64,000 nt of DNA from NCBI GenBank assembly GCA_903840355.1, contig CAIMFJ010000005.1:186001-250000 (forward strand), in the 5' to 3' direction. The notes beneath the pieces are model-generated. The model ran no database searches. It was not told the origin of the DNA and was given only the letters and a program-made list of their open reading frames with translations. A program made the translations under genes and the position numbers. Source of the stretch: an uncultured Opitutia bacterium (GTDB taxonomy: Bacteria; Verrucomicrobiota; Verrucomicrobiia; Opitutales; UBA953). Below, piece by piece: positions 40,100 through 42,229 of the stretch. Within the stretch, counting starts at the first letter, position 1. Every line of letters begins with the position of its first letter.

Positions 40100-40663
40100 T
40101 TAACCTTTTAACTCGGCGTCCTTGGCTTGCAAATGTTTCTCGATTTCGGCGGTGTGTTTATCGGTCAACGTTTGGATTTCTTTTTCGGCACGCTTCAAAT
40201 CATCGTCCGTAATCACTTTCTCCTTATTAGCTTTTTTGAGTAATTCGAGGCAGTCGCGGCGTGCATTGCGCACGCGGACTTTACCTTCTTCGGCCATCCG
40301 GGTGGCAACTTTGGCGAGTTCCAGGCGACGTTCGCCCGAAAGTTCGGGGATGGGGCAGCGGAGGAAGTTGCCTTGGGGGACGGGGTTGATGCCCACGTTG
40401 GCGGCTTGGATGGCTTTGCGAATATCTTCCATCGTGGCCTTGTCAAAAGGCTGTACCACAATCGAACGAGCATCCGGCGTCGTGATGGCAGCCATGTCTT
40501 TAAGACGTTGGGTCATGCCATAGGATTCGACGTGTACTTGAATGTTTTCGACCATGCTCGGGGTCGCTTTACCCGTGTGTAAGGTGCTAAATTCATGGGA
40601 CGTGTGATCCACGGCCTTCTTCATGTTAAGGGCACCGTCGTTGAGCGCTTTTTTAATATCCAT
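40100..40663 (-). CDS. frr: Ribosome recycling factor
   Basis: A 187-residue factor that, with EF-G, splits post-termination ribosomes. It contains GKATPSMVENIQVHVESYG, the Asp/Arg-rich VQPFDKATMEDIRKAI and RLELAKVATRMAEEGKVRVRNARRD, which match the three-helix-bundle tRNA-mimic fold, and ends with the conserved helix DDLKRAEKEIQTLTDKHTAEIEKHL. It follows pyrH by 23 nt; pyrH-frr is a common bacterial pairing. Confidence 0.96.
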   Translation of the reverse strand: MDIKKALNDGALNMKKAVDHTSHEFSTLHTGKATPSMVENIQVHVESYGMTQRLKDMAAITTPDARSIVVQPFDKATMEDIRKAIQAANVGINPVPQGNFLRCPIPELSGERRLELAKVATRMAEEGKVRVRNARRDCLELLKKANKEKVITDDDLKRAEKEIQTLTDKHTAEIEKHLQAKDAELKG

Positions 40664-40686: not shown

Positions 40687-41421
40687 TTACGCCACCACGG
40701 TGCCGATAGGTTGACCGAGGACGGCTTTTTTAATCGCCCCGGCGGTGCTCATCGAGAACACAATGATAGGCATTTTATTGGCTTCGCAGAGGGAGAAGGC
40801 TTCTGCATCCATGACGCCGAGGCGCTTCGATAACGCCTCTGCATGTGAGACGCGCGTGTAACGTTTGGCATCTGGATACTTCATCGGATCTTTATCGTAC
40901 ACGCCATCTACCTTGGTGGCTTTGAGAATAGCGTGCGCCCCGATTTCATTCGCCCGCAACGCAGCGGCATAATCGGTGGTACAATAAGGATTACCCGTAC
41001 CAGCTACGAAGATGACGATGCGACCCCGTTCTAAGTGACGGGTGGCACGACGTTGAATGAAAGGTTCGGCGATACGATCCATCGGGATGGCGGACATCAC
41101 GCGAACTTCGAGACCCGCTTTTTCCAGACGATCCATTAAGGCCAAGCCGTTGATAACTGTGGCCAGCATGCCCATGTTATCTCCCGTTGTTCGATCTGTG
41201 CCATTAGCTCGGGCCCCGGCTAGGCCACGGAAAATATTTCCTCCACCTACCACGAGGGCGACTTCGGTGCCGATTTTTTGGAGAGTTTTTAATTCGACGG
41301 CCAGACGGTCTAAGACCACGGGGTCAATGGCTTCGTTGGTTTTATCATTTCGGAGAGCTTCTCCGCTGATTTTCAGAACGATTCGCTGAAACTTGGGCTT
41401 CGTGGACGCTTTGGCGGGCAT
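40687..41421 (-). CDS. pyrH: Uridylate kinase
   Basis: A hexameric bacterial UMP kinase making UDP for RNA, DNA and cell-wall precursors. The ATG at 41421 gives 244 residues, matching the family, whereas the longer frame uses a TTG. RIVLKISGEALRND is the N-terminal phosphate-binding motif; VALVVGGGNIFRGLAGA and TGDNMGMLATVINGLAL bind UMP. AGTGNPYCTTDYAAALRANEIGA and KATKVDGVYDKDPMKYPDAKR complete the site. It lies upstream of frr on the same strand and opposite to the tRNA gene. Confidence 0.96.
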   Translation of the reverse strand: MPAKASTKPKFQRIVLKISGEALRNDKTNEAIDPVVLDRLAVELKTLQKIGTEVALVVGGGNIFRGLAGARANGTDRTTGDNMGMLATVINGLALMDRLEKAGLEVRVMSAIPMDRIAEPFIQRRATRHLERGRIVIFVAGTGNPYCTTDYAAALRANEIGAHAILKATKVDGVYDKDPMKYPDAKRYTRVSHAEALSKRLGVMDAEAFSLCEANKMPIIVFSMSTAGAIKKAVLGQPIGTVVA

Positions 41422-41513
41422 ATAGGGGAAATGAGCCAAGGGACCCCCAGCGTCAACCTCGCCGTGGTATCGCTTGACTCCCGGCGAAAAAATCTACTTC
41501 TGTATTAGTCCAC

Positions 41514-41665: not shown

Positions 41666-42229
41666 TTAAGCGCGGCCGAGGTATTCTTTATTCTCGGTGC
41701 TGACCTTGATCTTCTCGCCTTGTTTGATGAAGAGGGGGACGTTGACGATTAAACCATTTTCGCAGGTGACGGACTTTTGGACGTTACCAGCCGTGTCGCC
41801 CTTGACTGCGGGGGGAGCTTCCAAGACTTCGACCGTGACCGAGGGAGGGAGGTCAACCGTGACTGGGCGATCTTCCACGAAGAGGATTTGGTAGGTCGTG
41901 CCAGGGATGAGGAATTCTTTAGAGTCTTCTAAAGAAACCGCTGGCATGTAGTATTCTTCATTGGTGTCCACATCGACGAAGACGTAGTTGCCATCGGCTT
42001 CGTAAGAGAGTTCGAGTTGCTTAGTGGAGTTATCGAAAACTTCGAAGCTGACGCCGATACCACAACGCACGGGGATTTTAGCACCCGTTTTGATGGAGCG
42101 GAGTTCCATTTGCACGTAGGAGGCGTTGTTCGGAGGGGTGCGAACGAGGCACTCAAGAACGATGCAGAGCTCACCGTTGTAGCTCATGATATTCTTTTTC
42201 TTGATACGATTGACGGGAAGGGAGGCCAT
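41666..42229 (-). CDS. efp: Elongation factor P with atypical tip loop
   Basis: EF-P binds between the P and E sites and relieves stalling on polyproline stretches. From the ATG at 42229 the protein has 187 residues, the family length. SYNGELCIVLE opens domain I, YEADGNYVFVDVDTNEEYYMP is in domain II, and CENGLIVNVPLFIKQGEKIKVSTENKEYLGR is the conserved domain III end. The domain I tip, where E. coli has PGKG with Lys34 beta-lysylated, reads PPNNAS here, with Asn34 in the same numbering and no Lys or Arg in the loop. No EF-P modifying enzyme is in the window. It could be a second, specialised EF-P paralogue. A folded leader is likely (42253-42290). Confidence 0.93.
   Translation of the reverse strand: MASLPVNRIKKKNIMSYNGELCIVLECLVRTPPNNASYVQMELRSIKTGAKIPVRCGIGVSFEVFDNSTKQLELSYEADGNYVFVDVDTNEEYYMPAVSLEDSKEFLIPGTTYQILFVEDRPVTVDLPPSVTVEVLEAPPAVKGDTAGNVQKSVTCENGLIVNVPLFIKQGEKIKVSTENKEYLGRA

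Follow-up and report, generated by a model that had tools for sequence, protein, structure and literature searches.

A single-copy elongation factor P with an asparagine tip in Opitutales: a conserved lineage form of a documented minor EF-P type

The activity of elongation factor P (EF-P) is commonly attributed to a tip residue that bears a positive charge and a chemical extension. EF-P domains II and III dock in the ribosomal E site, while the loop of domain I reaches the CCA end of the P-site tRNA-Pro; there, the positively charged tip and its extension assist, with the charge contributing strongly in E. coli (PMC6544042). We analysed a 64,000-nt stretch of DNA (“the window”) from an Opitutales genome, in which the efp gene encodes asparagine at the tip position, a site occupied by a modified Lys or Arg in most bacteria. 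Is this protein the organism's working EF-P, and if so, how does its tip act? The original prediction offered three options: an unmodified EF-P, a different chemistry, or a paralogue with another job. The relevant features of the locus are as follows.

41666..42229, minus strand: efp (elongation factor P), 187 aa, three domains, sole copy found in the genome (translation, Pfam, genome searches)
42116..42142, minus strand: efp codons 30–38, R-T-P-P-N-N-A-S-Y, with Arg30 as flank, loop 31–37, tip Asn34, and Tyr38 opening beta4 (translation, alignment, model)
40687..41439, minus strand: pyrH, encoding UMP kinase; the gene immediately following efp (locus comparison in relatives)
40100..40663, minus strand: frr (ribosome recycling factor), a conserved neighbor on the same strand as efp (locus comparison)

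Translation of 41666–42229 on the minus strand gives TPPNNASY at EF-P residues 31–38, as predicted, and the length and domains are normal: Pfam PF08207, PF01132, and PF09285 (a KOW-like N domain and two OB domains) all match above cut-off. Hallmark residues of EF-P are retained, i.e., KGDTAG (the domain III GDTA motif), VPLF, Y183, and R186. The domain I alignment with E. coli EF-P is gap-free, with VKPGKGQAF (residues 30–38) over RTPPNNASY, such that K34 corresponds to N34. The loop (T31-P32-P33-N34-N35-A36-S37) contains no Lys or Arg. This part of the prediction stands, with the qualification that the nearest basic residue, Arg30, adjoins the loop; Arg30 is common to the whole class, with Lys in some members. 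An AlphaFold model (mean pLDDT 85.5) is that of a normal EF-P, and its best structural matches in the PDB are EF-Ps. Since the modeled strands beta3 (20–30) and beta4 (38–45) enclose the 7-residue loop (31–37), N34 is predicted to be the geometric tip. Alternative gap placements that might put Lys or Arg at the tip were tried and ruled out, because the loop has the same length as that of E. coli EF-P. The protein passes the NCBIfam EF-P subfamily model NF001810 (165.7 vs. 161 bits) and misses the efp equivalog TIGR00038 (163.9 vs. 185.8 bits), meaning that automated annotation may under-call this EF-P lineage. The gene also encodes PP motifs of its own: codons 32–33 (window positions 42131–42136, PPN in the active loop), PPS at 128, and PPA at 139. 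PPN is a known stalling motif, so synthesis of EF-P may depend on EF-P itself.

Whether the protein is a paralogue with another job depends on what else the genome encodes. The genome is 2.27 Mb, with completeness put at 99.3%. When it was searched using the protein or PF09285 as query, no second efp appeared above cut-off, as far as the assembly allows; the sole other PF09285 match is partial and below cut-off (17.8 bits, contig C2). Across the family, 67 of 79 genomes have an efp match, the remainder being mainly incomplete genomes, and none of the 67 has a convincing second full copy. A single efp in a genome of this completeness argues against a specialised paralogue. The location of the gene also looks ordinary for a translation gene, since efp lies directly before pyrH and frr; the order efp-pyrH-frr-sucC-sucD is kept in relatives, with sucC and sucD present in most family loci that have sufficient flank. 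We judge it very unlikely that the protein is a paralogue, of EfpL/YeiP type or otherwise, with a different role. E. coli EfpL (8s8u) is the best PDB sequence match, and the EfpL NCBIfam model gives 104.6 bits, but this score is far below the equivalog cut-off of 216, whereas the EF-P subfamily model is passed. Moreover, EfpL has a longer, Arg-bearing loop where the window protein has seven residues, and EfpL co-occurs with EF-P whereas the window efp is the only copy. EfpL/YeiP identity was rejected on these three grounds: score, loop length, and single copy.

Among named records, the closest relatives belong to freshwater Opitutales (Verrucomicrobiota) and were for the most part assembled from lake metagenomes. 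Every intact family loop that was read has RTPPNNASY (98 loci, including some taken from two collections, and 56 distinct proteins). Overall identity among the 56 proteins falls to ~61%, and these nine residues are their longest invariant run; shuffling the invariant columns gave a run as long in 63 of 20,000 cases. Synonymous codons differ within the family at all nine positions (30–38). The combination of invariant residues and variable synonymous sites means that the motif is due neither to sequencing error nor to chance. Judged from these sequences, the family loop is under strong purifying selection, as opposed to being in decay.

The proteome, too, suggests that EF-P function is still needed. 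The valyl-tRNA synthetase (ValRS) of the window genome retains PPPNVTG. In ~324 kb of this genome (the 64-kb window and 13 further 20-kb stretches, in which genes were simply taken to be the longest ORFs), PP is found in 58% of predicted proteins, and there are 31 PPP motifs vs. 19.9 expected from shuffles. It could be argued that EF-P function is largely lost or reduced: the lineage would tolerate a weak EF-P, use less polyproline, and rely on ABCF factors instead. PP pairs fall slightly short of expectation in the sampled proteins (observed/expected 0.89), the genome is small, and in E. coli the Lys is known to be important. However, PPP is above expectation and the ValRS PPP is kept; no other part of the protein is invariant over as long a run as the loop, contrary to what relaxed constraint would produce; and the place before pyrH and frr is kept in the family. 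We consider a largely lost or reduced function quite unlikely.

An Asn tip is itself not new, having been in print since 2010 as a rare class of about 2%. In 2010, Bailly & de Crecy-Lagard (PMC2821294) tallied Asn34 in 2.2% of the EF-Ps of genomes that lack yjeA/yjeK, and in 2019 Volkwein et al. (PMC6544042) gave 2.23% of 1,166 EF-Ps, always with Pro32. Asn is also listed among natural EF-P tips in the 2024 EfpL paper (PMC11611912). The window protein, with Asn34 and Pro32, belongs to this documented group.

We compared tip residues across 69 EF-Ps of the class, a sample that excludes one divergent second copy. Residue 34 is Asn in 38 proteins, Arg in 28, and Lys in three, making Asn34 the commonest tip. 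The loop types are TPGNLRA (32) and TPGNLRG (1), TPPRMAS/CPPRMAS (16), TQGRQAG (11), TPPNNAS (3, the window's family), TPGKG variants (3), TPPNLTS (2), and TPGRRMA (1). Asn34 is thus a documented minor tip that is also the commonest in the class, i.e., a lineage trait and not a peculiarity of one genome. The narrower unusual point, as read from these sequences, is that the window's family also lacks the Arg36 carried by most other Asn34 proteins of the class (TPGNLRA), an absence seen besides in two sister-family genomes. Only the TPPNNAS and TPPNLTS proteins, among the 69, have no Lys or Arg anywhere in the loop. We conclude that the window EF-P represents a conserved lineage trait, one form of an already described minor type of EF-P.

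Outside the class, 20 more EF-Ps all have PGKG except two EfpL-like copies. A tree built without the loop columns requires five tip-residue changes and groups the TPPN families with support of 100; it is a quick tree, with weak deep branches, so the order of changes can be proposed only tentatively. Because Lys34 prevails outside the class, the most economical scenario is that Asn34 would have arisen near the class base from a Lys34 ancestor, that Arg then replaced Asn on two or more occasions, and that Lys was regained a few times; the window's family would now have TPPNNAS instead of TPGNLRA.

Several other EF-Ps of the class are worth recording. The 11 TQGRQAG proteins (L039, L053, L058, L064–L066, L015, L054, L057, L070, and L072; families f2, f5, and f6) have Arg34 without Pro32, which is the pattern of EarP-modified proteins. 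A search for EarP gave no match in the order, nor any in the control genomes; these proteins may be modified by another enzyme or not at all. Lys34 (TPGKG) is found in L009 and L013 (genus g26) and L076 (genus g42), in families that otherwise have Asn34 or Arg34, reflecting either reversal or gene transfer. The divergent second copy (L078, in genome G008) is an EF-P-like protein with an odd loop region, SVGTAQTRP, and lies beside a TPGNLRG EF-P.

We also searched for enzymes of known EF-P modification families. The lysine-type system uses EpmA and EpmB, and the original prediction had pointed to both genes; neither was detected above cut-off in the window genome. EpmA (TIGR00462) was above cut-off in 0 of 96 genomes of the order, compared to 2 of 14 control genomes; the best match in the window genome is below cut-off, and its frame, at 578 aa, has the length of a LysRS. 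No EpmB equivalog (TIGR03821) was found above cut-off in the window genome, the single match scoring 266 vs. 369 bits. The ORF concerned (388 aa) scores best against the lysine 2,3-aminomutase AblA, though below the AblA cut-off, and exceeds the threshold of the general KamA model.

Window genome contig C5:112489-113448: KamA-family aminomutase closest to AblA (L249; family profiles)

With no EpmA in the genome, this KamA-family enzyme probably serves beta-lysine or other amino acid metabolism. For the arginine-type system, EarP (PF10093) had no matches in 96 and in 279 genomes, with control genomes likewise giving none; Arg34, the residue on which EarP acts, is missing from the window EF-P, which has Asn34 with Pro32 where the arginine-type loop has Arg34 without Pro32. 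Deoxyhypusine synthase (PF01916) was found in 0 of 7 genomes of the window's family, with 7 of 14 control genomes positive. The family-41 glycosyltransferase PF13844 is not in the window genome, and was found in one of 12 genomes tested, a congener.

Deoxyhypusine synthase homologues (PF01916) were observed in each of the six f3 genomes sampled (L036, L038, and others) and in one other genome. The sampled f3 EF-Ps mostly have Asn34 in a TPGNLRA loop, placing a bacterial deoxyhypusine synthase beside an EF-P without Lys34.

These searches bear on the second of the original options, a different chemistry, in which Asn34 or Asn35 bears a new modification such as glycosylation, a polyamine-type extension, or deamidation. 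In the highly active EF-Ps that have been studied best, residue 34 carries an extension. An N-X-S/T sequon is formed by N35-A36-S37 in the window's family and by N34-L35-T36 in the sister family, but the TPGNLRA proteins do not share it, and the glycosyltransferase was found only in the congener. Asn has no nucleophilic amine, making a hypusine-like reaction chemically unlikely. A deoxyhypusine-synthase-like protein can accompany an Asn tip (PMC6544042), as it does in the sampled f3 genomes; the enzyme is nonetheless absent from the seven genomes of the window's own family. Taken together, a modified Asn seems unlikely, although an enzyme belonging to some other family would escape these searches. 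Of the three options, an unmodified EF-P is the best supported, the paralogue has lost its support, and a different chemistry is retained as a rival.

We therefore favor the view that this protein is the organism's one housekeeping EF-P, probably acting through an unmodified Asn at the tip of a loop made rigid by proline. The rigidity would come from P32-P33, and the amides of N34 and N35 would contact RNA; hydrogen bonds from Asn34, perhaps with Asn35 and Arg30, would stand in for the contacts that a modified Lys or Arg makes. Such a loop would act without any known post-translational modification, like other reported unmodified EF-P types. Extended to the whole family, the proposal is that polyproline is made using an EF-P loop with no modifiable or charged residue, a stiff PPNN and its amides being sufficient; we give this wider claim an even chance. 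To our knowledge, the EF-Ps that work unmodified have a Lys or Arg tip. By analogy with these, and with the strong contribution of the charged tip in E. coli, a neutral tip may be weak.

In the literature searched, we found no functional study or assay of an Asn34 EF-P. Nor did we find descriptions of (i) Asn34 as the main tip of this class, (ii) repeated tip switching within it, or (iii) a family with no basic loop residue in its sole EF-P, although the loop tables of Brewer & Wagner 2024 and Pinheiro 2020 may already list the lineage. Prior tabulation of the tip residue limits the surprise. Nevertheless, a single-copy, strictly conserved, neutral-tip EF-P with no loop Arg is a natural test of the need for charge and modification, and because the class has Asn34, Arg34, and Lys34 in related organisms, the question can be addressed with matched proteins.

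How does the window EF-P compare with known systems? It shares Asn34, Pro32, and the lack of a beta-lysylation pathway with the documented Asn34 class, to the extent that the sources quoted above describe it, and differs in its TPPNNAS loop with no Lys or Arg, most Asn34 proteins of the class having TPGNLRA with Arg36. The sister family f4 (L006/L007) likewise has a PPN tip with no loop Lys or Arg and falls in the same clade (support 100); its residues 35–36 are Leu-Thr (TPPNLTS), and its identity to the window EF-P is 45–47%. With E. coli EF-P, in which Lys34 is beta-lysylated by EpmA/EpmB, the fold, loop length, and domain III motifs are in common, whereas the tip is PGKG there and PPNN here, and the EpmA and EpmB equivalogs were not found in the window genome. 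For the actinobacterial EF-P that works unmodified (Pinheiro et al. 2020, as cited in PMC11611912), reliance on loop stiffness in place of a modification has likewise been proposed. The Corynebacterium glutamicum protein (6s8z) has the highest TM-score to the window model, 0.84, which may merely reflect domain orientation. Actinobacterial EF-P keeps a Lys tip, in contrast to the Asn of the window EF-P. Lastly, EfpL/YeiP has a tip that works unmodified, as proposed for the window EF-P, but with Arg on a longer loop and beside a normal EF-P; another EF-P type has been described with a stiffer loop (PMC11611912).
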